Source of the DNA: Aquimarina agarivorans
Lineage (GTDB): Bacteria > Bacteroidota > Bacteroidia > Flavobacteriales > Flavobacteriaceae
Length of the DNA stretch: 64,000 nt
Assembly: GCF_000218485.1 (NCBI RefSeq)
Contig: NZ_AFPB01000168.1
Location: 1 to 64,000, forward strand
Direction: 5' to 3'
The position numbers and the translations under genes were made by a program. The notes under the pieces were generated by a model that saw only the letters and a program-made list of their open reading frames with translations, ran no database searches and was not told the DNA's origin. Positions 23,737 to 64,000 of this stretch are shown here, piece by piece; position 1 is the first letter of the stretch; every line of letters begins with the position of its first letter.

Positions 23737-25869
23737 ATGCAGAAAAGAATATTTCAATTAGCTTTATTTACATCTTTTACAGCATTTACAGTGAATGCTC
23801 AACGAACTTACGAATTTGAAAATATTGCCATTCCGGTTGCACCTGATGACGGATTTGAATGGGAATTACAAGATGACTTTTCAGATGACTTTAATTATCC
23901 AGATGGAATGGGAAAACAAAGTCCTTTATTTACTTCAAAGTGGGACGATAGTTACAATCCAGACCCCGCCTTTAAAGGACCAGGAGCTACTTTTTGGACT
24001 ACGGCCAATTCGGCAATTAATAATATAACTAATCGATTGGAAATCAGAGCAACTCCACACACATTGGACGGCGATGGAAATGTGAATAGTGTTTTTTGCG
24101 GAGTGGTTTCTTCAAAAACTAAGGTGCGCTACCCAATTTATATGGAAGCGAGTATTAAAGTAGCCAATGTTGAAAATTCATCTAACTTTTGGATGCTTGA
24201 CAGTGGTGGATTTAACGAAATTGATGTTTTAGAAGTATACGGGGGCTCACCAGATCCTTTTTTTAGCCAACAGATGTCTACCAATTTTCACATATTTGAT
24301 CGTCAAGGACCTAATGGCGCTATTAATGTAGATAATACCTATCAAACTTTTTTCCAAACAAACAGGGATATTCCAAATTACCAAACAGATAATACGGGAT
24401 TTTGGAGGGATGATTTTCATCAATTTGGGGTATATTGGAAAAGCCCAAACGAGGTAACATTTTATATAGATGGTCAGCCAACTCAAAATGGAAATCATTT
24501 TGTGGAAGGCCGAAATGCCAGCCTTTTGGACGGTACATACGAGTCGGCAATTTTGCAAAGTCCCATACCAAATGATGGTAATTTGCCAATTGATAAAGGG
24601 TTGCTAAAAAATCAAGTATTTAGAGAGGTGTTTATGATTATGGATATTGAAAGTCATCATGCCCGTCCAATTTCGCCTAGAGCTGATCTTGAAGATAGCC
24701 TTAAGAATTTAATGGAAGTGGATTGGGTACGTACATACAAACCAGTAGATGATGGTTCAGGTGCTAGTGATAGAACAAGATCAATTACCTTTAAAAATAG
24801 AGATACTTTTATTCCTGCTGGAGAAGCTGAACCAGCGTTTAGTTTAGGTGCTGTAGTACCATTAGATATTGAATATGCAACGGCAAGTACAGGTGGGGTA
24901 GAAGAAGATTTAAATTATGTGGCTATACAAATCAGGCAATTGGATGAAAACGGGGATGCGGTAGCCACTAGTGAATTTGAGGCAGTTATTCCAAACGAAG
25001 GTCCAAACCGAGCAAATACAACTATAAATTATTCTGTGCCTACTGAATTTGAAAATGGGACAAAAATACCAACTACTGAGGAGCTGCCAGCTGGCCATGA
25101 ATTAATATTACTAATGTTTATGTCTGTTGATGGTGATGCTGGTTTTGCAAATGCCGATGATACTATTGTTATTAAAGCGGGTAGAACCAGATCAATTAGT
25201 TTTAACAATAAAGATTCATTTATAGCACCAGGAGGAGTATTTCCTGAATTTGTTATTGGTGAATCAGCCGCATTAAATATTACCTATGCAACTGCATTAG
25301 CAGGTGGGGTAGAGGAAGATTTAAATTACGTAGCAGTACAAGTGCGTCAGGTTGATGGTTCTGGTGCTACGGTAGCAACTACAGCTTTTGAAACTGTTGT
25401 ACCCGAAACCGCTGTAAATAATGATACGGTAACTGTTGATTACACCATACCATCCAATTTTACAACAGGGGCAGATAATAGTATCATTTTTACTGAAAAA
25501 GTACCTACTACGGCGCAGTTACCCGCAGGGCACAGGGTATTACTATTAGTATTTATGTTAGTTGATGAAAGTGATACGGGTTTTGCTCAAGCAAATACGG
25601 ATATAGTTTTAAAGGAGCAGGGTGATAATACATTAACAGTGGGTGATTTTAATACAAATAATACTGCTGTAGCAGTGTATCCCAACCCAGCATACAAAAA
25701 ATTGACTATTGAAGGAGCGTTTACCACTTGGAAAATTTACAATTTACTAGGAATTGAAATAGCAAAAGGAACTGACCCAGAAGTAAATGTTGCCGATTTT
25801 ATACCAGGTTTGTATTACGTTATTTTTGATAATAACACTACAAATTCTTACAAATTGATAAAAAACTAG
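23737..25869 (+). CDS. GH16 beta-agarase-like enzyme with two unknown modules and T9SS tail
   Basis: A 710-residue secreted glycoside hydrolase. Signal peptide MQKRIFQLAL to VNAQ (residue ~22). The GH16 domain (about 25-335) has the catalytic motif E161-I-D163-V-L-E166 (NEIDVLEVYGG), with E161 as nucleophile and E166 as acid/base by family rule; FWMLDSGG just before it and VDWVRTYKP at the end of the fold fit beta-agarases. Two ~140-residue modules follow (345-482 and 483-627), then a T9SS sorting domain (about 645-710). Agarose or porphyran is the likely substrate; agarase versus porphyranase is not settled. A terminator follows at 25921. Confidence 0.88.
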   Translation: MQKRIFQLALFTSFTAFTVNAQRTYEFENIAIPVAPDDGFEWELQDDFSDDFNYPDGMGKQSPLFTSKWDDSYNPDPAFKGPGATFWTTANSAINNITNRLEIRATPHTLDGDGNVNSVFCGVVSSKTKVRYPIYMEASIKVANVENSSNFWMLDSGGFNEIDVLEVYGGSPDPFFSQQMSTNFHIFDRQGPNGAINVDNTYQTFFQTNRDIPNYQTDNTGFWRDDFHQFGVYWKSPNEVTFYIDGQPTQNGNHFVEGRNASLLDGTYESAILQSPIPNDGNLPIDKGLLKNQVFREVFMIMDIESHHARPISPRADLEDSLKNLMEVDWVRTYKPVDDGSGASDRTRSITFKNRDTFIPAGEAEPAFSLGAVVPLDIEYATASTGGVEEDLNYVAIQIRQLDENGDAVATSEFEAVIPNEGPNRANTTINYSVPTEFENGTKIPTTEELPAGHELILLMFMSVDGDAGFANADDTIVIKAGRTRSISFNNKDSFIAPGGVFPEFVIGESAALNITYATALAGGVEEDLNYVAVQVRQVDGSGATVATTAFETVVPETAVNNDTVTVDYTIPSNFTTGADNSIIFTEKVPTTAQLPAGHRVLLLVFMLVDESDTGFAQANTDIVLKEQGDNTLTVGDFNTNNTAVAVYPNPAYKKLTIEGAFTTWKIYNLLGIEIAKGTDPEVNVADFIPGLYYVIFDNNTTNSYKLIKN
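24769..25617 (+). repeat. Two tandem copies of the ~140-aa module in the first GH16 enzyme
   Basis: Copy A covers about 24769-25182 and copy B about 25183-25617. Each begins RTRSI(T/S)F followed by a conserved phenylalanine-glycine segment, contains GGVEEDLNYVA and QxRQ, and ends with LPAGH plus a hydrophobic strand and FA.A. The order of conserved strands suggests a beta-sandwich. I recognise no described family. Confidence 0.85.
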
Positions 25870-25920
25870 CGTAAAACAGGCAAGTACTGTAAGTAAATTT
25901 TAACACGGTCATAGTGATGC

Positions 25921-25957
25921 AAAAAGTCCAATAACTTAATTGTTTGTTGGACTTTTT
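25921..25957 (+). terminator. Intrinsic terminator after the first GH16 gene
   Basis: A perfect 11-bp stem, AAAAAGTCCAA at 25921-25931 and TTGGACTTTTT at 25947-25957, 52 bases after the stop codon at 25869. The T-rich 3' arm fits an intrinsic terminator and separates this gene from the beta-helix gene. Confidence 0.8.
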
Positions 25958-26135
25958 GTTGTAAAAAATTAATTTTCAATGAATTGAATTCAAAAGATAG
26001 CTTAGTCATCAATTAAAAAAAAGAATTGAATAAAATGGCTTGCCTAAATATAGGTTTTAGTCATTAAATAAAGCTATGGTACTAAAATAGGTGTATGAAT
26101 TATAGAGGTGGTGTTAATTAAGTGATTTATGAAAT

Positions 26136-26143
26136 TATATTTG
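26136..26143 (+). promoter_or_regulatory. -7 element before the beta-helix gene
   Basis: TATATTTG is an exact match to the Bacteroidota -7 consensus TAnnTTTG, 35 bases before the ATG at 26178. No obvious -33 TTTG is present at normal spacing. Together with the terminator at 25921 it suggests that the beta-helix gene has its own transcription unit. Confidence 0.5.
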
Positions 26144-26177
26144 GCAGCTTATAGAACAACATAAATATGAATTGCAT

Positions 26178-29090
26178 ATGGAAATTAAATTAAAACCCTT
26201 TAATAAGTTTGTAGTTACACTGCTTAGTTTTTTTATTTTTTGTGTTGGAAATGCACAAATTATCGACTTTGATGCGGTATACACCAATGATGGTGATATC
26301 TATTCAAAAATTCAAAAAGCCATAGAAGATGCTCCCGTAGGAGCTACAATTTTATTTAAAAGTGCTAACTATACTATAAATAATGGAAAATTATTGGCAT
26401 TAAACAAAGCACTTACATTTGAAGGTTTAAACCCAGGCAATGATTTTAAAAGTGGAGAAAGAGGTGCCAGCGGTATAAAGACCACCATTACTACCAAATC
26501 AAATATTACAATACGGTCAAATAACATAAAGTTTAAAAACATTGAATTTAAAAGAGAGAATATGGGGGAAGATGTTTTTGACGTTTTGATTGACGCTAGA
26601 CACCCTTCTTATTTGGTGAAAGAGCCTCACAATGAAACACAAATTCAATACACTGGTTTGGAGTTTACAAACGTAAGTTTTAATGGTACGGCTTATCCGT
26701 TTCACGCAGGTAACGGAATCGGTGCAACCTTTACAAATGTAACCATTGATAATTATAGAAGAATTGGATTTTGGACGGATAGAAAAGGACGCTTGGATAC
26801 TTCAAAAAAAATTACATTTGATAAATGCGTTTTTGAGCCAGAGGCGATTATAGGATTTGATGACCGAGCAATTTCTTTAGATGCAGGTAACACGGAATAT
26901 CCTGTAGTTTGGGATTTGGAAGGAACAACAGTCAAAAATTGTAAATTTACTGATGCTGGTATTGCAATTTCAAGGTGTAAAAATATGATAGTCACACAAT
27001 CAACTTTTAATGATACTAAAGGGAAAGTTGATATGGCACATGTCGAAGAATTTTCGAGCAACTTTACGCTTAGTAACAATATTTTTAATTGTGATAATGC
27101 TAGGACTAAATTAGTGGTACTGGACCGTGAGTTGCAAATTGTAAGTGATATTAAAATTTCAGGCAACACCATCACCGGAAGCTACGGGTTTTTTATAAGT
27201 GCTTACGCAGCAAATAGGGTTTCAATAACAGCTAATGACTTGAGCAAGGCAAATTCAGGAAATCAAAATTCTATTGATTTTACTTTTTATGAAAATAGAG
27301 GCATTGAGCCTATACCTTTTGAAATTTTATCCCACACCATTGAAATTTCAGAGAATAAAGGGTTAGAATTACCACAAAACAAAAACCTAAAAGTAGATTT
27401 ATTAGACACGGATACTGAATCGGTAATAAACGATTATTTGCCTGCTGAAAGAAACATTAGAAGATTAAGCGAAGGACAGCCATTGCTTCCAAACGGAATC
27501 TATGAGATCATTAATACTGAAAATAACAAAAAACTATGTCCAGCCACAGGAAATTCTTTAACCACAAAAAGTGGTGATGGTGATCATTTAAAATGGAAAA
27601 TTACATCAAATACGCCTTATACATATATCATACAAAATGTGGGGAATTCCGAATATATGGAAACAGCAGTTCCTTATACGGAGTTCAATATATTTAATAA
27701 AACCGAAGAAAATTTATTTCCAAATATGTTCAGCTATTCTGCCGACGAAGAAAATTTACCGTACTGGACTATTTTTAAGAAAGGGAGTACTTTTAATATT
27801 TTTGCAGGTGGAAATGAAAGACAATCAGCACTTGCAACAAATGCTGATGAGGTAAAATTATTGTTTGGAAAAGTAGGAAATCCCGACGGGACAAGGAGTG
27901 TTAAAGCATTAGGTAAAAATGCCAAGTGGACCTTTAATAGGGTAGATGGCGAAATTGTAGTGCCAAAACCAGTTGGAAATAGAAATAGATCGCTTTCTGT
28001 TGATAATTTAAGTGACTTCATCCCTGAAGGAAAGTCAATACCCGTTGTTGATTTAAAAGAAGTTTTAGATTTAGGAATTTCATATGCCACTGGAGTAGCT
28101 GAAGGGGTAGAAGAAGAATTGACTTATGTAGCTATTGAAATTAGACAAAAAAATGAAAGCGGAGAAACAGTAAACGCTACAGAATTTAATGCGGTGTTGC
28201 TTGATGATAATCCTAATGCTAGTAGTATTGGGATTAAATTTCAGATACCAGAAAATTTTAAGGATGGTAGTCCTATACCATCAACCATTGATTTACCCGC
28301 AGGGCATGAATTAGTACTTGTCACATTTATTTCAGTCAATAATGATGCAGATTTTCAGAGTACAGAAAGTGAAATAATTATTGCCAAAAGCGGAGTGCTT
28401 GATCGAGAGAGAAAAATTGAGTTTTCAAACAAAGCTACATTTATACCTCCAACAGGAACATTACCCGAATTAATGACAGGCAAAGCAATATCATTAGAGA
28501 TCAACTACGCTACTGCCATAACTGATGGTGTAGAAGAAGATTTAAATTATGTAGCCTTACAACTAAGGCAAATTGATGAAACTGGAGATACTGTAGCTAC
28601 TACTGCATTTGAAATTATAGTGCCTGATACAGCTAAAAATAATGATACTGTAACAATAAATTACCCCGTGCCTACAAATTTTACTACTGGGGCTAACAAC
28701 GGTGTAATTTTTACAGAAAAAATACCAACAACAGATGAATTACCAACTGGACACAAATTATTACTATTAATATTTATGCAGGTGGATGAAAGCTTGACTG
28801 GTTTTGCCGATGCGAATACTGAAATTTTTGTTTATGACGAAAAGAGTAAAACGTTAACCACTTCTGATTTTAAAGCTAATGAAGCTCCTGTTACTGTTTA
28901 TCCGAATCCAGTACAAGACTTACTAAAAATTGAAGGTAATTACAAAAGCTGGAAAATACTTAACTTATTGGGTAATGAAATAAATGCAGGAGATACTTCT
29001 GAAATAAATGTGTCAAATCTTTCATCAGGATTGTATTATTTACTTCTTGACAAGGAAAAAACAATTTTATACAAGTTCATAAAAAAGTAA
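26178..29090 (+). CDS. Secreted parallel beta-helix protein with beta-trefoil-like domain, two unknown modules and T9SS tail; putative new polysaccharide-active enzyme
   Basis: About 970 residues, function not assigned. The ATG at 26178 begins the signal peptide (MEIKLKPFN to CVGNAQ); an in-frame TTG lies two codons upstream. Residues ~30-430 show the short repeating strands of a right-handed parallel beta-helix (for example SNITIRSNNIKFKNIEF, TFTNVTIDNYRRIGFW, KITFDKCVFE, DIKISGNTITG), the fold of pectate lyases and several glycoside hydrolases. A ~140-residue region with IYEIINTENNKKLC and FNIFAGGNERQS resembles a ricin-type beta-trefoil. Two copies of the ~140-residue module shared with the agarases and a T9SS domain follow. 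Position and shared tail suggest that it acts on the same or a linked algal polysaccharide. Confidence 0.75.
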   Translation: MEIKLKPFNKFVVTLLSFFIFCVGNAQIIDFDAVYTNDGDIYSKIQKAIEDAPVGATILFKSANYTINNGKLLALNKALTFEGLNPGNDFKSGERGASGIKTTITTKSNITIRSNNIKFKNIEFKRENMGEDVFDVLIDARHPSYLVKEPHNETQIQYTGLEFTNVSFNGTAYPFHAGNGIGATFTNVTIDNYRRIGFWTDRKGRLDTSKKITFDKCVFEPEAIIGFDDRAISLDAGNTEYPVVWDLEGTTVKNCKFTDAGIAISRCKNMIVTQSTFNDTKGKVDMAHVEEFSSNFTLSNNIFNCDNARTKLVVLDRELQIVSDIKISGNTITGSYGFFISAYAANRVSITANDLSKANSGNQNSIDFTFYENRGIEPIPFEILSHTIEISENKGLELPQNKNLKVDLLDTDTESVINDYLPAERNIRRLSEGQPLLPNGIYEIINTENNKKLCPATGNSLTTKSGDGDHLKWKITSNTPYTYIIQNVGNSEYMETAVPYTEFNIFNKTEENLFPNMFSYSADEENLPYWTIFKKGSTFNIFAGGNERQSALATNADEVKLLFGKVGNPDGTRSVKALGKNAKWTFNRVDGEIVVPKPVGNRNRSLSVDNLSDFIPEGKSIPVVDLKEVLDLGISYATGVAEGVEEELTYVAIEIRQKNESGETVNATEFNAVLLDDNPNASSIGIKFQIPENFKDGSPIPSTIDLPAGHELVLVTFISVNNDADFQSTESEIIIAKSGVLDRERKIEFSNKATFIPPTGTLPELMTGKAISLEINYATAITDGVEEDLNYVALQLRQIDETGDTVATTAFEIIVPDTAKNNDTVTINYPVPTNFTTGANNGVIFTEKIPTTDELPTGHKLLLLIFMQVDESLTGFADANTEIFVYDEKSKTLTTSDFKANEAPVTVYPNPVQDLLKIEGNYKSWKILNLLGNEINAGDTSEINVSNLSSGLYYLLLDKEKTILYKFIKK
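27981..28836 (+). repeat. Two tandem copies of the ~140-aa module in the beta-helix protein
   Basis: Copies at about 27981-28400 and 28401-28836. The second is very close to the second copy in the first GH16 enzyme (GVEEDLNYVALQLRQ; TGANNG; LPTGHKLLLLIFMQVD), while the first is more divergent. The same order of conserved segments is kept. Confidence 0.85.
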
Positions 29091-29123
29091 AATTATCAAA
29101 TTATATTTTGTGTTTAAAATCAC

Positions 29124-29166
29124 ATTAAAAAGCCTTGAAAAAAAATTTTTTTTCAAGCTTTTTAAT
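29124..29166 (+). terminator. Long palindromic terminator after the beta-helix gene
   Basis: Arms at 29124-29145 and 29146-29166 form a nearly perfect 21-bp stem with one bulged C and essentially no loop, starting ATTAAAAAGC and ending GCTTTTTAAT. It lies 33 bases after the stop codon. The symmetric A/T runs would allow function on both strands. Confidence 0.7.
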
Positions 29167-30049
29167 GTTTGCTAAAATATGATTAAGGAATTCTATTAAA
29201 TCTGATTTTTAATTACTCCAATAAAATTAGCATTTCCGTTTGGTTAATAAACAAAACAGCAAGCGAAAAGAGTCATTGTAAATGAGCAATTTAATACTGT
29301 AAAGGGTATCAATAGTATGTATAATAACAAGAATAGCTCATCTTACTTCCTATCAAGCTTGCGTTAAAAATTACAACTGATCTGCTCTTTTCCATACATT
29401 TCAAATATCTGATTATCAATTTTTTTTAAGTTTTAATCACAAATCACAAATCACATATCAACATATACGCTAAGTTTTTCAATAAGTTGTATAAAAAAGG
29501 GTTGCACCACATCCTTCGAATTGTCCGCAATGAGAATTAAGAATTTTTTGTTCTGACTAGAAAGAAAACATCAGCTATATTCCAATAATAGCGTTGTCCA
29601 AATTTAAGATACCAAGTAAGAAAACCATTTTTATGGAAAATTTATATACTAAAAGTAGAGCTATACAAAGGTGTTCTATACAAACTTAGCTTGATCTAAT
29701 AAATAGTTTGTTTATGCTGAAACTACAACCTTTTTGCTATATAAAAAATAGATGAAATACACTTTTTATGGATAAGTTGATAATCTATCGTTGTTGATAA
29801 TATAGGTAAATTTTAGGGTAATTCAAAAACTAATGTTTTAAATTAATTTTAAATATTCTTTAAATCAGAAGCTTATTTACAATTTGAATCTAAAAAAATA
29901 TGTTAAATATAATGTTGTCCTTGTATATTTTATAAGATTTTTCCTTCTTTTGTATAAGTAATTAATATTGCTGGTTATATTTACAAATGTAAGATTTTTA
30001 CTTATTATCTTAGGATATTGAGACTTGCAGAACTTAACCAAATTTATTA
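29167..30049. other. 880-base gap without recognisable genes
   Basis: Very AT-rich sequence between the beta-helix and second GH16 genes, both on the plus strand. I see no open frame above about 20 codons on the plus strand and no clear remnant of a mobile element. The right end carries TATATTTA-like sequence before the GH16 start at 30050. The length is unusual for a gap inside a functionally linked gene set, so a long leader, a small RNA or a decayed gene are possible. Confidence 0.5.
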
Positions 30050-32029
30050 ATGATGAAAAAAAGAATTACACACTTTTTAAATGTATCAATGATGGCAGTA
30101 CTTTTTAGTACTGGATCAGTTATGCATGCCCAGTTTGAATTTGATGCTATTCCAATTGCTCCTGATGCAGGAGTGGGCAGGGTATGGGAATTACAAGAGG
30201 CACCTTCGGATGATTTTAATTATATTTTTGATCCTAGCACTACGCGTGTAAATTTTGGACCTGATGGTGAAAATAAATGGTATAATACATACCATGATTT
30301 AGCTAGCGGACAGCCAAACATTTTTCAAGGTCCTGGCCCAACTATTTGGAGGCCTGAAAACTTATACGTAGACGGGGATCAATTACAAGTATTCAATACT
30401 CGTATCGCTGGAGAAGAAAAGGATCAATTTGGAAATGAATATCCATACGCAACCAGAGGAGGATGTATAACAGGATTAACAAAAGTGCTGTATCCAGTAT
30501 TTGTTGAGGCTAGGGTAACTGTTGCTAACTCAACAGCAGCGTCTGATGTATGGCTATTGAGTCCTGACGATACTCAGGAAATTGATATCATTGAAGCTTA
30601 CGGTGGTGCTGGTATAGCAGGAACAGTACCCGGAGAAACTGAAGAAACTGAAGCAGGACGTAATCAGTTTTTTGCTGAGCGTATTCATTTAAGCCACCAT
30701 GTATTTATTCGTGATCCTTTTCAAGATTACCAACCAAGGGATTTTAACAGTTTTTGGAGAAGAAATGGTATCGCGTCATGGGGTGGTAGAACAATAGATA
30801 TCGGAGTGTATTGGGTATCACCTACCAGAGTTGAATATTATATTGATGGTCAATTAGTACGGGTTTTAGATAACAATGCTAGTGCATCAGAAGTTATTGG
30901 TGGATCATGGGAATATACTCGTCCTACAGGTCTTGTAAATGCTGCTGGTGAAATTGTTGAAACTAATTTAGGAAATGATGGTAAATTATTATTTGAAACA
31001 TTACGACCCGGATTCCAAGATATGACACAAGTAACCTGTGGGCAATTTTCTACATTTGACGAATCTTGTTTAGACGCTGCTCAATCAGCTTCAAACATTA
31101 GTGTAATAGACCCTTTCGATTATTTGAACAACGGACGTCGATTTTCCAAAGAGCTGGATATAATTATCAATACAGAAGATCAAACCTTTCAAGCTAATGC
31201 CACTCCTAGTCGTTCACCAAATAATAATGAAATTTCAGAAATGCAAACTCCTGACCAAACTATGTTGGTGGATTGGATACGCGTGTACAAACCAGTAGAT
31301 GACGGATCAGGGCTAGCTGATAGAGAAAGGTCAGTAACATTTGATAACAGAGCCTCATTTATACCTGACGGAGGAACAGAGCCAACGGTAAGCTTTGGTG
31401 ATGAGGTGGCATTGGACATCACTTATGCTACTAATAAAGTAGGTGGAGTAGAAGACGACATGGATTATGTAGCAGTTCAAATAAGACAAGTTGACGAAAC
31501 TTTTAGTACGGTAGCCACTAGTGCGTTTACGCAAGCGGTATTTGAAAATGAACCAAATAGTGGTTCAGTTACCTACAATTACGAAATACCATCAAACTTT
31601 GCAACCAGACCAGATCCCGATATGCCAGGTTCACTGCTACCATTTACCGAGGCAATTCCAGCAACTGCTGACTTGCCTGAAGGACATAGACTATTACTTT
31701 TAATGTTTATGCAATCTGATAATGGTATGCCGACCAATAACTTACTTTTCACTAATGCAAACGGCACAATTATTATTGAAGACGATTCAAGATTATCTAA
31801 TCCAGAGTTTAGTGACGAAGCTAATGCTATAAGTCTTTATCCAAATCCAACTGAAAAAGAACTAGTTATTTCAGGAGCTTTCAAATCCTGGAAAATAGTT
31901 ACCTTATCGGGAGCTACCGTAAACGAAGGAACAACAGCACCAATTGATGTAACAAATTTATCAGCTGGTTTATACTATATTAGTTTAGATAATAATAAGT
32001 CAAAAACATTTAAGTTTGTTAAAAAATAA
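30050..32029 (+). CDS. GH16 beta-agarase with one unknown module and T9SS tail
   Basis: A 659-residue secreted glycoside hydrolase. The signal peptide ends at VMHAQ (residue ~28); ATGs at codons 1 and 2 are equally possible. The GH16 catalytic domain (about 30-420) has VWLLSPDDTQ followed by E177-I-D179-I-I-E182 (EIDIIEAYGG), the pattern of characterised GH16 beta-agarases, with E177 and E182 catalytic by family rule; VEYYIDGQLVR and MLVDWIRVYKP lie further on. One copy of the ~140-residue module (about 424-580) and a T9SS sorting domain (LYPNPTEKELVISG to FKFVKK) follow. It should cleave beta-1,4 bonds in agarose outside the cell. Confidence 0.92.
   Translation: MMKKRITHFLNVSMMAVLFSTGSVMHAQFEFDAIPIAPDAGVGRVWELQEAPSDDFNYIFDPSTTRVNFGPDGENKWYNTYHDLASGQPNIFQGPGPTIWRPENLYVDGDQLQVFNTRIAGEEKDQFGNEYPYATRGGCITGLTKVLYPVFVEARVTVANSTAASDVWLLSPDDTQEIDIIEAYGGAGIAGTVPGETEETEAGRNQFFAERIHLSHHVFIRDPFQDYQPRDFNSFWRRNGIASWGGRTIDIGVYWVSPTRVEYYIDGQLVRVLDNNASASEVIGGSWEYTRPTGLVNAAGEIVETNLGNDGKLLFETLRPGFQDMTQVTCGQFSTFDESCLDAAQSASNISVIDPFDYLNNGRRFSKELDIIINTEDQTFQANATPSRSPNNNEISEMQTPDQTMLVDWIRVYKPVDDGSGLADRERSVTFDNRASFIPDGGTEPTVSFGDEVALDITYATNKVGGVEDDMDYVAVQIRQVDETFSTVATSAFTQAVFENEPNSGSVTYNYEIPSNFATRPDPDMPGSLLPFTEAIPATADLPEGHRLLLLMFMQSDNGMPTNNLLFTNANGTIIIEDDSRLSNPEFSDEANAISLYPNPTEKELVISGAFKSWKIVTLSGATVNEGTTAPIDVTNLSAGLYYISLDNNKSKTFKFVKK
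31319..31788 (+). repeat. Single copy of the ~140-aa module in the second GH16 enzyme
   Basis: It begins DRERSVTFDNRASFIP, contains GGVEDDMDYVAVQIRQVDE and LPEGHRLLLLMFMQSD, and sits between the GH16 fold and the T9SS domain exactly as in the neighbouring enzymes. A short insertion (RPDPDMPGSL) makes it longer than the others. Confidence 0.85.
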
Positions 32030-32072
32030 GTTTGAATTGCTTATGCAATATTGTTCAAATTCAAATTCAAAT

Positions 32073-32106
32073 AAAAAGGCAACAATTGAAAAATTGTTGC
32101 CTTTTT
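32073..32106 (+). terminator. Intrinsic terminator after the second GH16 gene
   Basis: A perfect 15-bp stem, AAAAAGGCAACAATT at 32073-32087 and its complement at 32092-32106, with a GAAA loop and a T-rich 3' side. It isolates the agarase locus from the suf cluster. Confidence 0.85.
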
Positions 32107-32432
32107 TCATGGTGTGCCATGCATACTATTTACTAATTAAAAATCCTACTTTCAAAAACTAAATCTATAATCGAACAGCTGAGTTTTTAAACAAAAGCTT
32201 AACCAAACGAAAATTTAAAAAAAAATTCCTCACGGATTTTAGGTGATAAGTTAGTTTGCTGTAATTTAATAACAAAAAAGGGTTAAAAAGTAACAAATAA
32301 TTGGATGAAGCAACATTCATCATATTAACTGTAAAGCTAATACATGAATAAAATTTGAGTTGACTACATAACTAATTGTAGTTATTAATAATAAATATTA
32401 TTAATACACATATAAATTATAATATGTAAGTA

Positions 32433-32466
32433 TTTGAATGTAAAAACTACTTATATCGTATATTTG
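32433..32466 (+). promoter_or_regulatory. Promoter of the suf cluster
   Basis: A -33 element TTTG at 32433-32436 and a -7 element TATATTTG at 32459-32466 are separated by 22 bases, which fits the Bacteroidota promoter pattern well. The sufA-like start is 30 bases downstream. No known Fe-S regulator site could be identified around it. The 400 bases before it, back to the terminator, hold no gene. Confidence 0.7.
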
Positions 32467-54464: not shown

Positions 54465-57257
54465 ATGTTTAGATTTTCTTATTGCATTTTATTTCTTTTT
54501 CTGAGTATTTCAGGGTATTCTCAACAGCAAAAAATAGTAGGTAAAATCATTAATGAGCTTACCCAAAACCCGGTAGAAAACGCAAGCGTAAGCTTATTGC
54601 ATACTAATTTTAATGCCACTACAAACCACGAGGGAATATTTAGTTTATCTGGAACATTTCCGTTGGGAGAACAAGTGCTTAAAATTCAAAAAAATGGTTT
54701 TTTAGTAATGCAACTACCCATTGTAATAGAGTTGGATAAAGTACTACAGTTACCTCAGTTGACATTACAAGTTGATTTAGTGAATGCCCACCAAACATTT
54801 GCCACTATTGATTTAACAAATGATCAACTGGAAACGGATCAAAACAATGAGCAAAATCAAACTTTGTTGCAAGCCTCTCGTGATGCTTTTCTAAATAGCG
54901 TAGCTTTTAACTGGAGCGCTACTTTTTTTAGGATAAGAGGATTGGGGAATGAGCATAACAAAATGTTGATTAACGGTGTGGAAATGAACAGCCTTTATAA
55001 TAATCGCCCCAATTGGAATAATTGGACAGGACTGAATGACATACTAAGGTCTCAGGAAAACACCTTTTACAACAGCTTAAGCCCATTAAGTTTTGGATCG
55101 GCTTTAGGTGTAACAAATTTAAAATTAAATGCTTCAAGTTTTGCAACAGGTAAAAAGGTAGCTGTAGCTAGTACAAACAGATCATTTCAAGGCCGGTTAA
55201 TGGCAACATACCACAGTGGTGTACAAAAAAATGGATGGTCTTATAGTTTTTCTGCTTCCGCCAGAAGGGCAAAACAAGGCTATATTGACGGCACAAGTTT
55301 ACAATCATTTAGTGTATTCGCTAGTGCTGAAAAGCAATTTAACCAAAAACATAGTTTGAGTTTAACAGCACTATATACGCCTATTGAACGTGGGAAAGCC
55401 TCACCAAACACCAATGAGGTAACTGAACTTAAGGGTACACGGTATAATTCATATTGGGGAATTCAAAATGGAAATATTCGAAACTCAAGAATCAGAAGAG
55501 TGCAGGAGCCTATTGTGACCATGTCTCATTATTGGAAACCAACCTCAAAATGGAATATACAAAGCACGTTACTTTTTCAAAGTGGGCAAGTTGGTAATAG
55601 CAGGTTAGATTATACAGGCAAGGTGGTAAGAGAGGTCAATGAGCAAACTTTTTTTGAAGGAGGAGGACGAAATCCTGATCCGTCCTATTATCAAATACTA
55701 CCAAGCTATTTTTTAAGAAATAAGGGCAACGAAAATTTTGAAGCAGCATTTTTAGCTGATCGAAATTTTAGAGCAAATGGGCAACTGAATTGGCAATTCC
55801 TATATAATTCAAATCAAAATACTAACGAAAATGCCACGTTTGCCTTATATGAGGATCGAAACGACGATACCTTTATAGCAGCTAATACAATAGTAGATTA
55901 TCACTATTCCGAAAATATAAACCTACAGGCCAAAGCAGCTTTCAGAAGATTAAAAAGCAACAATTTTGCAGAATTAACTGATTTACTTGGAGGGAGCGGT
56001 TACTTGGATATCGATGGTTTTTCTGAAGGTGATCAGGCGCAAAATGATTTACAAAACCCAAATAGAGTAGTAGGTGTAGGAGATATTTACAAATATAATT
56101 ACGTACTAACAAACAATGTTGCAAATGGTTTTATACAAGTTAGTTACAGTAAAAACAAATGGGATGTAACTTCAGCCATTGCAGCAAAGGCACAGCAGTA
56201 TCAACGCATTGGTAAATTTGAAAACGGATTTTATCCGGGCAGTTTATCGTTGGGAAAAAGTAAAAAACTTACGTTTTTAGGCTATGGTTTTAAATTAGGT
56301 TTGCAGCGACAAATAAATCCTAAATGGTATACTAAAGCTTCGGTGTTGGTAAATAGCCAGCCCCCGTTATTGCAACATTCGTTTACCAATCCTAGGCAAA
56401 ATAACGACACCGTATTGGATTTAAAAAACGAACAATTGATGTCAAGCGATATAAGTGTGGTGTATCAATATGGGAGTATTAAGACTCGATTTTCAGCGTA
56501 TTGGATTCAACAAAAAAGCGGTACCAATCGTTCGTTCTTTTTTACTGACAATTTAGCTGGGTTGGGTCGTATTGATAATGCAGGTTTTTTTCAGGAAATT
56601 ATGACTGATATTGACAAACAAAACATAGGATTAGAATTTGGAGCAGAAATTGCAATGACAAGTACGCTTACGTTAAATTTGGCAGCAGCTTACGGCAAAC
56701 ACAGGTATAGTAATAATCCAAATTTGTATGTAACATCAAATACCATTGTAGAACCGTTACTTATTGGTCAAACATTTTTAAAAAATTATCATTTAGCAAC
56801 GGGACCCCAACAAGCTTATGGAGTAGGATTTAGTTACCGCGATCCTACGTATTGGTGGTTTAGCACACAGCTTAATTGCTTTTCAAATTCCTTTAGTAAT
56901 ATAAGTCCGTTTACACGTACTCAAAATTTTGTAACTGATGTTGATGGTCGCGCTTTTGCAAATTTTAATGAAGCAAAAGCAAAAGAGCTACTACAACAAG
57001 AACAGTTTCCTGCATATTTTTTGTGGAACGCTATAGGCGGAAAGTCCTGGAAAATAAAAAAACATTACCTCGGTTTTGTTTTAGGGGTTCAAAACTTACT
57101 AAATCAGGTATTCAAAACAGGTGGTTTTGAGCAATCTCGCAATTCAAATTTTAGCACTTTAAGTGCTGATAGCAATAGGTCAAATCCCTTATTTGGCTCT
57201 AAATACTGGTATGGTTCAGGCACTACATTTTACGTAAATACCTATTATAGATTTTAA
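54465..57257 (+). CDS. TonB-dependent receptor with N-terminal carboxypeptidase-like domain
   Basis: A 930-residue outer-membrane transporter. Signal peptide MFRFSYCILF to SGYSQ, then a carboxypeptidase D regulatory-like domain (KIVGKIINELTQNPVENASV; about 25-105), then a plug domain with FFRIRGLGNEHNKMLINGVE and a large beta-barrel ending in an aromatic residue (FYVNTYYRF). It lacks a clear SusC signature. It is followed 12 bases later by the DUF5689 lipoprotein, probably its surface partner. No sugar-specific SusD neighbour is present, so a glycan substrate is not indicated. Confidence 0.92.
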   Translation: MFRFSYCILFLFLSISGYSQQQKIVGKIINELTQNPVENASVSLLHTNFNATTNHEGIFSLSGTFPLGEQVLKIQKNGFLVMQLPIVIELDKVLQLPQLTLQVDLVNAHQTFATIDLTNDQLETDQNNEQNQTLLQASRDAFLNSVAFNWSATFFRIRGLGNEHNKMLINGVEMNSLYNNRPNWNNWTGLNDILRSQENTFYNSLSPLSFGSALGVTNLKLNASSFATGKKVAVASTNRSFQGRLMATYHSGVQKNGWSYSFSASARRAKQGYIDGTSLQSFSVFASAEKQFNQKHSLSLTALYTPIERGKASPNTNEVTELKGTRYNSYWGIQNGNIRNSRIRRVQEPIVTMSHYWKPTSKWNIQSTLLFQSGQVGNSRLDYTGKVVREVNEQTFFEGGGRNPDPSYYQILPSYFLRNKGNENFEAAFLADRNFRANGQLNWQFLYNSNQNTNENATFALYEDRNDDTFIAANTIVDYHYSENINLQAKAAFRRLKSNNFAELTDLLGGSGYLDIDGFSEGDQAQNDLQNPNRVVGVGDIYKYNYVLTNNVANGFIQVSYSKNKWDVTSAIAAKAQQYQRIGKFENGFYPGSLSLGKSKKLTFLGYGFKLGLQRQINPKWYTKASVLVNSQPPLLQHSFTNPRQNNDTVLDLKNEQLMSSDISVVYQYGSIKTRFSAYWIQQKSGTNRSFFFTDNLAGLGRIDNAGFFQEIMTDIDKQNIGLEFGAEIAMTSTLTLNLAAAYGKHRYSNNPNLYVTSNTIVEPLLIGQTFLKNYHLATGPQQAYGVGFSYRDPTYWWFSTQLNCFSNSFSNISPFTRTQNFVTDVDGRAFANFNEAKAKELLQQEQFPAYFLWNAIGGKSWKIKKHYLGFVLGVQNLLNQVFKTGGFEQSRNSNFSTLSADSNRSNPLFGSKYWYGSGTTFYVNTYYRF

Positions 57258-57269
57258 AAAATAACTAGC

Positions 57270-58652
57270 ATGAGAAAACAATTAGTAAAGCCAATTATAA
57301 GTATTTTGTTTATCATACTCACCGCTATGTCATGCGATGATAATATTGAAGTGCCTAAACCTCAAAATATTGAAATTCCCAATGGTACTATGGTAAGCAT
57401 AAGTGCTGCAAAAGCAGGGTTAGATCGTGCCGAAAACAATAGCATCACCTTTACCTCCGACCAGTTTTTAGAAGCTTATGTAGTGTCATCTGACAAGGGA
57501 GGGAACTTTTTTAAAGAGTTGATTTTACAGGATAAACCCGAAAATCCAACTGCTGGTATTCATTTTTTGATAGACGAGCGCGCTTTGCATAATCGTTTTC
57601 CTTTTGGAAGTAAACTATTTGTACAGTTGAACGGTTTAAGTGTTGGTTTTGGCAATGGCGTAGTAAAATTAGGAAAGTTATTAGAAAATGAAATTGTAGC
57701 CTTAACAGCATTTGAAATTGATCAACATGTGTTTAGAACAAACGAAATTGCAACAATCCAACCTTTAAATGTAACATTGCAAACGCTTACGCGAGAAAAG
57801 GAATCACTGTTAGTGAGGTTATCAAACATGCAATTTAATCCAGAACTTTTGGGCGATACGCCCAAAACGCTTGCTGCTGAGTCTACTGATAATTTTGATG
57901 GTTTACGGCTCATGAAAAATTGCGATGAAGGGATAGAAGTCGCCTTATGTACAAGTACGTTTGCAAGTTTTAAAACGCTAACGTTGGCAAGTGGGTCAGG
58001 CGATGTTATGGGAGTATTGAGTAGGGATTTTAGAGATGATTTTTTTGTTTTGAAAATGAATACAGCCAGTGATTTAAGTTTTAATGAAAATACCCGATGT
58101 GACCCCACATTTTTTGAGTGTACCAATACAAGTATTGATGCCACAGATCTTTTATTTTCGGAGGACTTTGAAACCATTACCAATGAAAATTTACTCGAAC
58201 CCCTAGGTTGGTTAAATATAAATGTAACAGGCGATGAAGAGCGTTGGACTGACAAAAAAATAACTAACGTAGCTAATCGAGTACTTACAATTTCAGCTTT
58301 TAATAGTAATTTGCGCCCTTTGGAAGCATGGCTTGTCACACCCGAAGTTGATCTCACTAATGTAGAGGATGCCTTTGTTCAATTTAGGGTGCGTACGCAG
58401 TTTAACAATGGAAAAATATTGCATGTTTGGATTACCAATAACTTTTCTGGGGAGGTAAAAACAACGGAATGGGAACTGCTTCCTGTTCAAATACCAGTTG
58501 CGTCGTCAAATTACAATACCTTAAAACAGCCTATTTCATGCCTGCCAGGGAAGGTCAGAATTGCTTTTCAGTACAAAGGTTTTGACCCCACAGCTACAGC
58601 TACATACCAAATTGACGATGTTAAGTTTTACGGTAATATTAAATTTCCTTAA
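57270..58652 (+). CDS. DUF5689 surface lipoprotein with choice-of-anchor J-like domain
   Basis: A 460-residue lipoprotein: MRKQLVKPII to LTAMSC with cysteine 22. Residues ~35-275 (VSISAAKAGL, FLEAYVVSSDKGGNFFKELI, PTAGIHFLIDE, KLFVQLNGL, VMGVLSRDF) match the DUF5689 pattern. The C-terminal ~170 residues (LFSEDFETITNENLLEPLGW, VTPEVDLTNVEDAFVQFR, YQIDDVKFYG) look like a choice-of-anchor J / lectin-like beta domain. It is cotranscribed with the TonB-dependent receptor (12-base gap) and likely sits over its barrel at the surface. Confidence 0.87.
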   Translation: MRKQLVKPIISILFIILTAMSCDDNIEVPKPQNIEIPNGTMVSISAAKAGLDRAENNSITFTSDQFLEAYVVSSDKGGNFFKELILQDKPENPTAGIHFLIDERALHNRFPFGSKLFVQLNGLSVGFGNGVVKLGKLLENEIVALTAFEIDQHVFRTNEIATIQPLNVTLQTLTREKESLLVRLSNMQFNPELLGDTPKTLAAESTDNFDGLRLMKNCDEGIEVALCTSTFASFKTLTLASGSGDVMGVLSRDFRDDFFVLKMNTASDLSFNENTRCDPTFFECTNTSIDATDLLFSEDFETITNENLLEPLGWLNINVTGDEERWTDKKITNVANRVLTISAFNSNLRPLEAWLVTPEVDLTNVEDAFVQFRVRTQFNNGKILHVWITNNFSGEVKTTEWELLPVQIPVASSNYNTLKQPISCLPGKVRIAFQYKGFDPTATATYQIDDVKFYGNIKFP

Positions 58653-58738
58653 ATAAAATAATTTTTCAAACTTTTTTTATTACGTAATTTTTAAATAAGA
58701 TTATTCTTACATGTTATAATTAACTGATTTACAGCGCA

Positions 58739-58746
58739 TATATTTG
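58739..58746 (+). promoter_or_regulatory. -7 element and long leader before the GH86 gene
   Basis: TATATTTG is an exact -7 consensus match. The GH86 ATG is at 58887, so transcription from here would give a leader of about 130 bases. A near-palindrome AAGATGATTAATAATCTT (58799-58816) followed a few bases later by a T6 run lies inside it and could fold as an attenuator or mask. Confidence 0.45.
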
Positions 58747-58886
58747 TGGTAAGGCTTATGCAAAAAATCAATTCAATAGATTATATCTATCCGTGCTTAA
58801 GATGATTAATAATCTTGTCCGTTTTTTGTATATATTTATCGAATAAATAAAGTGCCCTTTAATCTATTAAATTTAAAAATTAATCC

Positions 58887-61800
58887 ATGAATTCAAAATT
58901 ATTTTCGTTAGTAACGGCCATTGGCCTTAGCACTTCTGTGTTCTCTCAGGTCGAAGTTGATATAAACTTCGATATGAAACATACAGTTGGAGGAAAAGAA
59001 ACTTTTGATAGGAATAAGTACATTGTTTTGCACGCAGATGCTACTGAAAACGATTACAATGACGAGCTAGGTAAGCTTGATTCCTTAATCAATTTGTACG
59101 ATGCTTACTATGGTCGTGAGACTGGGCGTATGCGTTTTACAGTGGATCAAGTAAGAGAAAACGCCAACAGACCAGGCTTTGCTGATCCAGCAAGTATTGC
59201 TGAATGGGGTACTATTTTAAATAACTCTTATGCTGACAGAACGTCAAAACATCCTTTTGAAAAAGGAACTACAATAACAGCAGCTCAAGATGCGCCATTT
59301 TTCCCAAATGGACGTCATGCAACTGGACAAGGTTGGTTTTTTTCTGAAACAAATTCTGCTGAAGAGCCTTTTGCATCAGCCACAGGTCAGTTTATGGGAT
59401 TATTCATGCAAGAACTTTATGGCGAGGGAGGAACAACTGGTGCTCCAAGACCTGAATATGTTGAGGTGATTAACGAGCCATTTTTTCCATTAATTGATTT
59501 TGCTTCCGCTGGGGAGGAGTCAAGCGCTACTGATATTTTTGAAATGCATAAAACCGTAGCAGATTCGGTTAGGAAATATTCGCCTGAAAGTAAAATAGGA
59601 GGATTTACAAATGCATTTCCTGATTTAGAAGCCGAAGGTTTTGAAGCACAAAATAAAGTGCCTTTTGGTCAGTGGGAAGAGCGTTGGAGACGTTTCATTG
59701 ACGAGGTTGGTCCACAAATGGATTTTTATTCAATTCATTTATATGACTTTCATAGTATTGGAGGAAAAGAGCAGTTAAGAAAAGGTAGTAATATGGAAGC
59801 TACCATGGATATGATTGAGCATTACAATACGTTACAGTATGGCGAAGTGAAGCCTTGGGTTATATCAGAGTACGGTGGGCAACTAAATGACTTTTATGCG
59901 CAACCATGGTCACCAGCAAGAGATTGGTTAATCCTTAAATCATTTTCTTCAATGATGATGCAGTTTATGGAAAGGCCTGATGTTATTGAAAAAACAGTAC
60001 CATTTGCTCTAGGTAAGGCAGAATTTTTGTTTGGTGAACAGGCTGAAGGGTTTGCTTACCCTTGGCGTATGATGCGTAAAAAAGACGAACCAGCTTCTCG
60101 CAATAGCGATGAATATGTATTTACTGATGTGGTTAAATTTTACCAATTATGGAGTGATGTAAATGGTACACGTGTAGATACAAAATCCACGGATCTAGAT
60201 ATTTTAGTTGACGCTTACGTGGACACCCCTGAAAATAAGGCATATTTAATTTTAAATAGTTTAGCAGAAACTAACCTGAGTGTAAACTTAAACGAGTTTG
60301 GTTTAGGAACAAGTAATGTTACTGGCGTAAAAATCAAACACCTTTTTCTTGGAGCAAACAATGTACCAGTATTAGATATTACCGAAAGTAATACAGCACC
60401 TGAATCAGTTGTGGTTAATGAGGAGGGAACACTTATTATAGAGTATACTTTTGATAACGCAGTTGCTATTTCAGAAACTTCTACAGAAAGTAAAACCTAT
60501 GCAACTACCTACAAGCAAGCAATTGTCGCGGATCAGGCTATTTCATTTACTATACCAAACATTACTTTAGGTACTGATGGAGAAGCCTTATTAAGATTAG
60601 GTGTGGGTAGAACCATTGATGCAAGTAGAGTGCCTGTAGTAACAGTAAATGGAACTCCAATTTCAGTTCCTACAGATTACCGAGGTGATGTTCAAACCCA
60701 AAGAGATTCGTTTTTTGGTATTTTGGAAATTCCAGTACCTTTTGAAAATTTGGTTTCTGGCAATAATGAGGTTACCGTTAGTTTTAATGATGATGGAGGA
60801 TTTATAAGTAGTGTTGCTTTACAAACATTTGATTTTTCTCGTGAGGTAACCAGAACACCAATAGGTGATAGAGAGCGTTCATTAACTTTTGATAATATAG
60901 CTGATTTTACTCCTGCTGGAGAAGCTATCCCTGCGTTTACAATTAGTCAAAATATAAACTTAAGCCTATCTTATACAACAGGGTTGACTGATGGCGTGGA
61001 AGAAGATTTAACATACATTGCTGCGCAAATCCGTCAGGTAGATGAATTAGGAAATGCCGTAGCAACTAGTGAATTTATAACTTTAGCTCCTGGCGAAGCT
61101 GATAATGCAGGTGTAGCTGAAAATTTTACCTATAAAATTCCAACAAATTTTGCAACACCAAATACTGATTTAATTCCTACTACGGAAAACTTACCTGAGG
61201 GACACAAATTATTCCTTTTGTTATTCATGTCTGTGGATGGTGATACCAATTTTGCCAACGCAAATACTGAAATTGTTATTAACGAAGTTCCTGATCGCGA
61301 ACGTTCATTAACTTTTGATAACATTGCTGATTTTATACCCGCAGGAGGAACATTACCCACAGTGGGGTACGGACAAGAAGTGACATTACAATTAACCTAC
61401 GCAACAGGATTGACCGACAGGGTTGAAGAAGATTTATTTTACATTGCAACTCAAGTAAGACAAATTGATGCAGATGGTAATATTATTGGTGATAGTACAT
61501 TCACTACAATTTTACCTGATGATGCTCCAAATTCAGGTACGGTTAATTTTACGTACACGATCCCAACTGAATTTGAAACACCAGCTGTAGGTCCGATACC
61601 TACAACAGCAGAGTTGCCAGAAGGACATCAATTAGTATTGTTAATTTTTATGTCTACTGAAAATAACACTCTTTTTGCCAATGCAAATACATCAATTGTA
61701 TTAAACGCGGCCGCAGATAGAACAAGAGAAATTACATTTGATAACCTAAGTGAATACATTCCTTCAGGGTCAAGCATTCCTGTATTTGAACAAGGTCAAA

Positions 61801-64000
61801 TTATCCCTACTACTTTAACGTATACTACAGGTGTAAACGCAGGAGTTGAAGAAGATTTGAGCTACGTAGCTATGCAAGTACGTCAGCTTGACGAAAATTT
61901 TAATATCGTTAATACAAGTACTTTTCAAGCAGTAGTAGGTGATGATGCAGTAAATAGCGATACAGTTTCTTTTGATTATACATTGCCAACTACTTTTGAC
62001 GACGGCGAAGCTATTCCGCTTTCGGCAGATTTACCAACAGGGCATAGCTTGTTTTTATTAACCTTTATGTCGGTTGATGGCGATGCAGGTTTTGCGGATG
62101 CTAACACTCAAATTACTATTATTGAGCCGCAGCGCCGAAGAGCAGTTACTTTTGATAACAAATCGGATTACATGCCATCGGTTACTAGTTTACCTACCTT
62201 TGAGCAAGGACAAACTATACCTACAACTTTGACGTATAGTACAGGTTTAAACGATGATGAAACTGAAGAGGATTTGACTTATATAGCAATGCAAGTTCGT
62301 CAGTTTAATGAAAACTTTGCTGTAGTAAATACAAGTACTTTTGAGGCGGTAGTAAGTGGTGATGATCCCAATACGGGAACAGTAGACTTTGATTACACGT
62401 TACCAACTACGTTTGATGATGATACGGTGATTCCATTGTCATCAGAACTACCAGAAGGACATAAGTTATTTTTACTGATATTTATGTCAGTTGATGGGGA
62501 TACAGGTTTTGCAGATGCAAATACTGAAATTGAAATCATTTTAGCCAACAGAGAAAGAACAGTAACGTTTGATAACGTTGCCGATTATGTTTCTGAAGAA
62601 ACTAGTTTGCCAACATTTGATTTTGGACAAACATTTTCAACTACTTTAAGTTATACTACAGGTATTTTTGATAACGAGACTATTGAAGATTTAGACTATG
62701 TAGCTATGCAATTGCGCCAGATAGATCAAGCAGGAGGCGTGGTAAATATAAGTGCTTTTGAAGCTGTAGTTACTGCTGATGCAGAAAATAAGGATACAGT
62801 AACCTTTGATTATACACTACCTGTTAGTTACGAAAGTGGCGACCCAGTTTTAGACTCTGAAAACTTACCTGATGGACATAAATTAGAGTTATTGATATTT
62901 ATGCAAGTTGATGGAGGTGCTGGTTTTGCTAATGCAGATGGAGAAATTTTTATCAACGAACCAGAAGCAGATCGAGAAAGAACAGTAACTATTGGTAGTT
63001 TAGATGCGTTTATTCCGGAAGGAGGCATAGTGCCAACATTTGTTGAAGGAGATGAATTTTCAGTTTCAATCACTTACAATACAGCTGAATACCCTAATAG
63101 AATTGAAGATGTATCAAGTTTAAGTATTGAATTGCGTCAGGTGGATCAAGAAAATGGTGTAGTTAATACCGTAAATGTAGGTGGAAACCTTATTGTTGAC
63201 GTGACTACTGCGCCAAATGAAAACACCGTTACTGTAGATTTTACATTACCAACTATTTACAATAACGGAGACCCTGTGTTAGTATCCGAAGCATTGCCTG
63301 ATGGTCACAGTCTTGTTTTAGCAGCTAAATTGGGCGTAGATAATGATACCGCATTTAGTGAGGTTCAGGAAGAAATTAGTATTGAACGTTTTATTGAAGA
63401 TAGAGAAGCTTTCATTACTTGGAACAACAGAGATGAGTTTGTATCAGGAAGAAGAAACTTTCCTGTATTTTTCTTTGGAGAAACGGTTAATTTAAATTTG
63501 AGTTATTCAACACCAATTGTTGACGGAATTGAAGAAGAACTAGAATCCGTAAGGGCAAGAATTGTTCAAGTAAATAGAAAAGGTAAAATAATTAGACGTA
63601 CTAGAACCGCAAGGATTTTAACTGAAGGAGCACCAAATATAGACACTAGATCAGTAGCTTATACATTGCCAACACAGTTTAATGACGGTAGATTAATACC
63701 TAATTTACGCAGACTACCTAGAGGACATAGACTTAGATTGATACTATTAGTAAGAACTAAAGAATCTAAACGAGTAGCAACAACTAGATCAACTATTGGA
63801 TTCTTAGGGTTTAATTACTATTACAACAATTTTAGTAGTTATTTTGGAGCTAAAACCTTAGATTCGAATGATTCTGAAGTGAGTTTGTATCCAAATCCAG
63901 CTCATGAGGCTGTAATAATAAGCAATGCAACTGCATTTAAAACAGCTACTTTAATTGGCTTAAATGGCGCTGTAATAAGTTCAATCAATCTTACTGAATC
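58887..64000 (+). CDS. GH86 beta-agarase/porphyranase with seven unknown modules and T9SS tail (3' end cut by window)
   Basis: At least 1704 residues without a stop. Signal peptide MNSKLFSLVT to SVFSQ (about 21). The catalytic part (about 22-655) is of GH86 type, clan GH-A: HATGQGWFFSE, then YVEVINEPFFP with acid/base candidate E197, and PWVISEYGGQ with nucleophile candidate E328. Seven tandem ~140-residue modules run from residue 661 to ~1650, starting at 661, 803, 944, 1083, 1221, 1362 and 1505. A T9SS sorting domain begins near residue 1660 (SLYPNPAHEAV), so only about 30-40 residues are missing. It should cleave agarose or porphyran outside the cell; which one is not readable. Family call by motif and neighbour context. 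Confidence 0.85.
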   Translation, partial: MNSKLFSLVTAIGLSTSVFSQVEVDINFDMKHTVGGKETFDRNKYIVLHADATENDYNDELGKLDSLINLYDAYYGRETGRMRFTVDQVRENANRPGFADPASIAEWGTILNNSYADRTSKHPFEKGTTITAAQDAPFFPNGRHATGQGWFFSETNSAEEPFASATGQFMGLFMQELYGEGGTTGAPRPEYVEVINEPFFPLIDFASAGEESSATDIFEMHKTVADSVRKYSPESKIGGFTNAFPDLEAEGFEAQNKVPFGQWEERWRRFIDEVGPQMDFYSIHLYDFHSIGGKEQLRKGSNMEATMDMIEHYNTLQYGEVKPWVISEYGGQLNDFYAQPWSPARDWLILKSFSSMMMQFMERPDVIEKTVPFALGKAEFLFGEQAEGFAYPWRMMRKKDEPASRNSDEYVFTDVVKFYQLWSDVNGTRVDTKSTDLDILVDAYVDTPENKAYLILNSLAETNLSVNLNEFGLGTSNVTGVKIKHLFLGANNVPVLDITESNTAPESVVVNEEGTLIIEYTFDNAVAISETSTESKTYATTYKQAIVADQAISFTIPNITLGTDGEALLRLGVGRTIDASRVPVVTVNGTPISVPTDYRGDVQTQRDSFFGILEIPVPFENLVSGNNEVTVSFNDDGGFISSVALQTFDFSREVTRTPIGDRERSLTFDNIADFTPAGEAIPAFTISQNINLSLSYTTGLTDGVEEDLTYIAAQIRQVDELGNAVATSEFITLAPGEADNAGVAENFTYKIPTNFATPNTDLIPTTENLPEGHKLFLLLFMSVDGDTNFANANTEIVINEVPDRERSLTFDNIADFIPAGGTLPTVGYGQEVTLQLTYATGLTDRVEEDLFYIATQVRQIDADGNIIGDSTFTTILPDDAPNSGTVNFTYTIPTEFETPAVGPIPTTAELPEGHQLVLLIFMSTENNTLFANANTSIVLNAAADRTREITFDNLSEYIPSGSSIPVFEQGQIIPTTLTYTTGVNAGVEEDLSYVAMQVRQLDENFNIVNTSTFQAVVGDDAVNSDTVSFDYTLPTTFDDGEAIPLSADLPTGHSLFLLTFMSVDGDAGFADANTQITIIEPQRRRAVTFDNKSDYMPSVTSLPTFEQGQTIPTTLTYSTGLNDDETEEDLTYIAMQVRQFNENFAVVNTSTFEAVVSGDDPNTGTVDFDYTLPTTFDDDTVIPLSSELPEGHKLFLLIFMSVDGDTGFADANTEIEIILANRERTVTFDNVADYVSEETSLPTFDFGQTFSTTLSYTTGIFDNETIEDLDYVAMQLRQIDQAGGVVNISAFEAVVTADAENKDTVTFDYTLPVSYESGDPVLDSENLPDGHKLELLIFMQVDGGAGFANADGEIFINEPEADRERTVTIGSLDAFIPEGGIVPTFVEGDEFSVSITYNTAEYPNRIEDVSSLSIELRQVDQENGVVNTVNVGGNLIVDVTTAPNENTVTVDFTLPTIYNNGDPVLVSEALPDGHSLVLAAKLGVDNDTAFSEVQEEISIERFIEDREAFITWNNRDEFVSGRRNFPVFFFGETVNLNLSYSTPIVDGIEEELESVRARIVQVNRKGKIIRRTRTARILTEGAPNIDTRSVAYTLPTQFNDGRLIPNLRRLPRGHRLRLILLVRTKESKRVATTRSTIGFLGFNYYYNNFSSYFGAKTLDSNDSEVSLYPNPAHEAVIISNATAFKTATLIGLNGAVISSINLTE
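60867..63850 (+). repeat. Seven tandem copies of the ~140-aa module in the GH86 enzyme
   Basis: Copies start at 60867, 61293, 61716, 62133, 62547, 62970 and 63399, with a period of 414-429 bases. Copies 1-5 keep the signature DRERxxTFDN, EEDLxYxAxQxRQ, LPxGHxLxLLxFMSVD and FAxANT. Copy 6 has lost EEDL and FMSVD. Copy 7 is the most divergent and very basic (RKGKIIRRTRTARI, RRLPRGHRLRL). DNA identity between copies is limited, so this is old duplication kept by selection and not a recent tandem expansion. Confidence 0.88.

Follow-up and report, generated by a model that had tools for sequence, protein, structure and literature searches.

The window analysed here is the first 64 kb (64,000 nucleotides, forward strand) of the 124-kb contig NZ_AFPB01000168.1 of Aquimarina agarivorans (assembly GCF_000218485.1; genome size 4.07 Mb). 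It contains four genes for secreted proteins that share a module of about 134 residues, present in 12 copies. Protein searches and a named-genome scan placed the close relatives of these proteins in Aquimarina agarilytica and uncultured Aquimarina. The four hosts, with the Pfam or Protein Data Bank (PDB) matches on which their labels rest, are as follows.

23737–25869, + strand: GH16a, a secreted GH16 agarase-like enzyme with two modules and a type IX secretion system (T9SS) tail (PF00722 and PF18962 over cut-off)
26178–29090, + strand: a secreted protein combining β-helix and trefoil-like parts, followed by two modules and a T9SS tail (PF18962 over cut-off, RicinB under cut-off)
30050–32029, + strand: GH16b, a secreted GH16 agarase-D-like enzyme with one module and a T9SS tail (4asm, PF18962)
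58887–64000, leaving the window, + strand: a secreted enzyme of GH86 agarase-like type that bears seven modules (PF18206, PF18040 and PF18962 over cut-off)

The catalytic parts of three of the four hosts are agarase-like by their sequence relation to solved agarases. A PDB sequence search gave β-agarase A (1o4y; E = 2e-35) as the closest solved relative of GH16a, the signal peptide of which was read by eye, and β-agarase D (4asm; E = 1.4e-120) as that of GH16b; the GH16 label of the latter rests on 4asm, the Pfam GH16 match being under cut-off. The GH86 gene ends at contig position 64103 and encodes 1738 amino acids, including a T9SS tail. Its catalytic part matched 5ta1 (E = 1.1e-170; 5ta0 at about 1e-170), the β-agarase 8h97 (E = 1.9e-158) and the porphyranase 4aw7 (E = 3e-61). 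Entry 5TA1 is given as GH16B in the data statement of one paper (PMC5849685) and as GH86 in a passage of another (PMC10163077); following the sequence match, we take it as GH86. According to the former, a GH86 enzyme of Bacteroides uniformis degrades agarose mainly to a neoagarobiose-like product, and the latter covers agarases of families GH16 and GH86 from an Aquimarina strain in passages in which the present module does not appear.

The 12 module copies, all on the + strand, were delimited by alignment and a profile (A1) built from these copies only, except where other evidence is given.

24772–25182: copy 1 (GH16a)
25183–25614: copy 2 (GH16a)
27981–28382: copy 3 (β-helix protein)
28404–28829: copy 4 (β-helix protein)
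31322–31780: copy 5 (GH16b)
60870–61280: copy 6 (GH86 array, c1)
61296–61709: copy 7 (GH86 array, c2)
61719–62120: copy 8 (GH86 array, c3), structure also predicted
62133–62534: copy 9 (GH86 array, c4)
62550–62954: copy 10 (GH86 array, c5)
62973–63383: copy 11 (GH86 array, c6), diverged type (profile A1, tree, column conservation)
63402–63797: copy 12 (GH86 array, c7), diverged type (profile search, tree, column conservation)

With inserts the module extends to 153 residues, and the copies are 30–55% identical to copy 1. A first-pass annotation, made by a model from the sequence alone, had reported these 12 copies in four secreted proteins (two, one, two and seven, the two GH16 enzymes named first), and all of them were recovered. 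Among the 175 stop-to-stop frames of the window (at least 60 codons), A1 matched just the four hosts, with no match among the 175 reversed frames. A profile of eight relatives from seven other genomes, L022 included, recovered exactly the same hosts and no reversed frame, with 30050–32029 as two pieces; this is a reciprocal test and not an independent one, A1 having served to find the relatives in the first place. The whole genome gave 16 module matches, four of them outside the window in four further proteins on C22 (GH86-type), C26 (the same β-helix type) and C124 (two GH16-type proteins). A second GH16b-like module gene, on C124 (L019:11810–12881), continues in another reading frame near L019:12090; an assembly error or decay of the gene may be the cause.

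The sequence of 8wac_A was matched by A1 with an E value of 2.9e-12, in a search that returned seven PDB sequences up to E = 10. This entry, released on 2024-09-11, is titled 'novel agarose-binding carbohydrate binding module of an agarase'. The earlier view that the module matched no known carbohydrate-binding module (CBM) is not supported, although it is true that the Pfam and NCBIfam copies used here have no model for it. The identity to 8WAC is 34%, and the structure predicted for copy 8 shows the same β-sandwich fold. Profile A2 gave a stronger match to 8wac (E = 7.7e-31), which we leave out of account: the same sequence, via L022, is part of A2. No Pfam-A or NCBIfam model scored over cut-off inside the module in the four window proteins, and no Pfam model lay inside it in nine module proteins, among them the full-length GH86 protein of the window. 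A newer Pfam release lists PF27413.1 on protein P0006; P0003 and P0009, although of the same layout, carry no such entry. Our scan of P0006, with a library that has no PF27413 model, did not return it. A table in a review lists CBM99 for porphyran and CBM101 for agarose (β-sandwich) (PMC11122601), and 8WAC probably belongs to CBM101, a link that is ours and is not stated in the table.

Two other candidates were rejected. PDB entry 8WAE ('novel porphyran-binding carbohydrate binding module') may share with the module the β fold of a red-algal galactan CBM, but it was not among the seven PDB matches up to E = 10 and its structural similarity was at background level only; it perhaps represents CBM99. 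Likeness to Spo0M, VPS26 and arrestin (6–16% identity, about 3 Å, no sequence match up to E = 10) is taken as a common β-sandwich arrangement, that is, a shared fold only.

The module of 8WAC is a short form of about 115 residues that occurs singly at the N-terminal end of a GH86 agarase. The first R-x-R is missing from the short form, as are about ten residues ahead of position 23, and positions 38–46 and 91–98 are more compact (numbering of the copy at 61719–62120), whereas the window form has the N-terminal R-x-R and extra residues at about 10–22, 38–46 and 91–98, lies at the C-terminal end and is repeated. Tyr49 and Phe116 are conserved in both forms. In five other genomes the short form stands N-terminal to GH86-type domains (six frames: L022, L024, L026, L027, L028 and L032). 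It also occurs in free-standing proteins, with a T9SS-like end (L023, L056:15295–15951, L059:8607–9305 and, as a weak match, L029) or with no tail (L025). The protein at L056:15295–15951 sits between what we read as a SusC/SusD-like pair and a GH86-type gene 44% identical to that of the window, and L059:8607–9305 adjoins a GH16 gene 45% identical to GH16b.

The first-pass statement that the module always stands between the catalytic part and the T9SS tail is accurate for the four window proteins and fails across the family. Besides the six N-terminal cases, the relatives on C26 and C124 have other domains between module and tail, and in five GH86-type proteins (P0005, P0011, P0031, P0033 and P0036) the array is followed by a shared short cysteine-containing C-terminus that starts with CFP, with no T9SS-like tail. 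Other relatives, P0029 and P0030 among them, have no listed Por_Secre_tail, yet their ends are T9SS-like. The module is therefore not tied to T9SS. The contig of P0031 is labelled Arenicella, a gammaproteobacterial genus; GC content at this locus is 0.45, against 0.305–0.358 in the other ten named loci.

Three protein searches yielded 37 database proteins (22, then 12 new, then three), four of them records of the A. agarivorans genome; three translations from that genome bring the set to 40, with seven from A. agarivorans. The module is present in 39, with 139 copies in total, of which some are truncated where a fragment ends; the exception, P0040, lacks the module and was matched via its tail only. 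Nine proteins carry one copy, six carry two, four carry three and nine carry four; larger arrays comprise five copies (five proteins), seven (three) and eight (three). By best match to the window catalytic parts, 17 of the 40 proteins are of GH86 type, 12 of GH16 type and five of β-helix type, so that 34 of the 39 module proteins carry such a part. The six without a catalytic match are three fragments missing the N-terminus, two module-plus-tail proteins and P0040. This tally leans to enzyme-sized hosts, because scoring was confined to the roughly 8000 candidates with the most shared words and to proteins of comparable length.

In a sample of 397 genomes of the same family, the module was found in ten (A. 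agarivorans included) and PF18040, which serves here as a stand-in for GH86-type enzymes, in 21; nine of the ten module genomes lie within these 21 (Fisher p = 4.6e-12). Two of the eight PF18040 matches in A. agarivorans are in module-bearing frames. In a sample of 296 genomes from the phylum, the module was found in A. agarivorans only. These genome searches scored part of the first-look candidates in some genomes (10 of 27 in A. agarivorans), and A1 is of limited sensitivity, having missed the short-form protein at L056:15295–15951 that a broader profile found. The 18 pattern matches of the named-genome scan correspond to 11 loci: eight in Aquimarina (three in A. agarilytica ZC1), one in Flavobacteriaceae, one in Algibacter amylolyticus and one in an Arenicella metagenome-assembled genome (MAG).

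The β-helix part of the host at 26178–29090 had no match in the PDB sequence search, and an AF2 model from five sequences reached a pLDDT of 62.8. The model weakly resembles PL6 lyases, tailspikes and the epimerase AlgE6, and one portion of it matches lectin-like folds; these are the matches of a generic β-helix and trefoil, too general to indicate an enzyme class. Region 26178–27980 and proteins P0013, P0019, P0020 and P0025 form a conserved secreted β-helix plus trefoil-like family (51–67% identical). Its gene adjoins GH16 agarase-like genes in the window and another GH16 gene on C26. This family probably represents an uncharacterized agar-associated enzyme.

On the strength of homology and context, we consider it very probable that the module is an agarose-binding CBM, an all-β homologue of that in 8WAC, present here as a long C-terminal variant in one to seven tandem copies. 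The suggestion of a CBM for agar-type galactans in the first-pass annotation is thereby strongly supported, the nearest solved relative being titled as an agarose-binding CBM, three of the four catalytic partners being agarase-like and 34 of the 39 module proteins having a part that resembles the GH86, GH16 or β-helix part of the window hosts. The copies, the homology and fold match to 8WAC, the agarase-type partners and the co-occurrence with GH86-type enzymes are the observations behind this assignment; the window copies are predicted to bind agarose, and the array would gain avidity. Export through T9SS would place the enzyme at the cell surface or release it. Within the gel, the canonical modules would then attach to agarose chains. 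Each would probably do so weakly; a row of such sites could provide avidity, keeping the catalytic domain on the insoluble agar of red-algal walls while it works along the gel.

A number of observations weigh against this assignment or narrow it. The agarose binding of 8WAC rests on the title of the PDB entry, and our literature search recognized no paper describing its module and likewise none on these repeats. The long form has extra residues relative to 8WAC and shares only the 34% identity given above, so that the ligand may have shifted, and its conserved columns Ala51, Phe69 and Ser118 are not common to the short form. The co-occurrence is not independent, since module and PF18040 lie in one frame in six of the nine shared genomes (A. 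agarivorans included), and 12 of the 21 PF18040 genomes, including G177 of the same genus, are without the module at this sensitivity. The β-helix host is without an assigned substrate. Finally, free-standing copies at L057:8544–9173 and L058:8007–8741 (the latter weak) lie in a housekeeping-like neighbourhood shared by two genomes, with genes that we read as uvrA-like, endonuclease III-like and peroxiredoxin-like and with no open reading frame resembling the window's enzymes, which speaks against a strictly agarolytic role for every free-standing copy.

A midpoint-rooted tree of 54 copies from eight arrays, with several open forks, groups some of the copies by position. In six related arrays (that of P0026 from A. 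agarivorans, P0027–P0030 and P0001), the second, last-but-one and last copies each form one clade spanning 7-copy and 8-copy arrays (support 98/93, 100/99 and 99/99); the first copies and the last-but-two copies lie near one another, though not in one supported clade, and those from the middle fail to pair between the two array types. The clades of the last two positions sit on long stems, and the letter composition of the six last copies is deviant, making the exact place of the terminal copies in the tree unsure. All 12 terminal copies keep Tyr35, Thr37, Pro90, Leu105 and Gly108. Tyr49, present in 94% of 126 canonical and 100% of 12 short copies, is Ser, Ala or Glu in 84% of 12 terminal copies; Phe116 (90% of canonical, 75% of short) is Lys in half of them. 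Ala51, Phe69 and Ser118 are also changed there and are variable in the short form too. In the model of the copy at 61719–62120, Tyr49 and Phe116 fall in predicted strands 47–57 and 110–119, where they would help to form a sugar-binding face; the terminal copies may accordingly bind differently or act as a spacer.

These features invite a wider but tentative reading, which we regard as possible rather than likely: that one fold has furnished an agar-gripping system comprising ordered arrays of up to eight long-form copies with terminal copies maintained as a different type, free-standing surface binders and a spread of the array between Bacteroidota and Gammaproteobacteria. Terminal copies would then probably be non-binding or differently binding, and the free-standing proteins beside agarase genes, made of module and T9SS tail, would bind agar without being catalytic.

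We consider it fairly unlikely that the module, as a member of the same CBM family, is adapted to a different galactan or motif of red algae (porphyran, carrageenan, methylated or sulfated agar) or differs in specificity from copy to copy, a reading that for single copies overlaps with agarose binding. The modest identity to 8WAC, the position-specific types within arrays, the β-helix host and the Pfam names of the GH86-type part, which are those of porphyranase domains, would fit it; on the other hand, that part is nearer to 5ta1 and 8h97 than to the porphyranase 4aw7, and GH16b is nearest to β-agarase D. We think it improbable that the array serves chiefly as a stalk or spacer pushing the catalytic domain off the cell surface, with binding minor or lost, as the first-pass annotation had offered as an alternative. 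Runs of up to eight copies, joined head to tail by short linkers at regular intervals, would suit a stalk, as would last two copies that are altered at positions 49, 51, 69, 116 and 118 with core columns kept and that form long-stemmed clades common to both array types. Against it stand the nine of 39 proteins with a single copy and the six with two, the single copies ahead of GH86-type domains in other genomes, the five arrays ending without a T9SS-like tail and the agarose-binding title of the nearest solved relative; a stalk role may apply only to the two diverged last GH86 copies. An adaptor for T9SS or surface assembly, unrelated to glycans, would agree with the place of the module ahead of the T9SS tail in all four window proteins but is already largely refuted and highly implausible, given the five GH86-type arrays with a different tail (one on the contig labelled as an Arenicella MAG) and the window proteins 6545–9316 and 1436–3022, which have PF18962 over cut-off and no module. 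Elsewhere in the window, 18614–19324 encodes an EcoO109I-type restriction endonuclease (PF14511; E = 1.5e-26).

The module is not an unknown domain: its long form, repeated and located at the tail end, is a variant that has been little described. With an assignment to agarose binding that can be tested, 12 domains that had been unannotated gain a candidate function, and a CBM of which a single, N-terminal example has been solved is seen to occur also in long arrays at the C-terminal end and, free-standing, in secreted proteins. With a model in Pfam or NCBIfam, such proteins could be annotated in agarolytic marine bacteria. Agarose-binding tags would be of practical value in protein purification, and the arrays offer a direct test of multivalency on a gel substrate.
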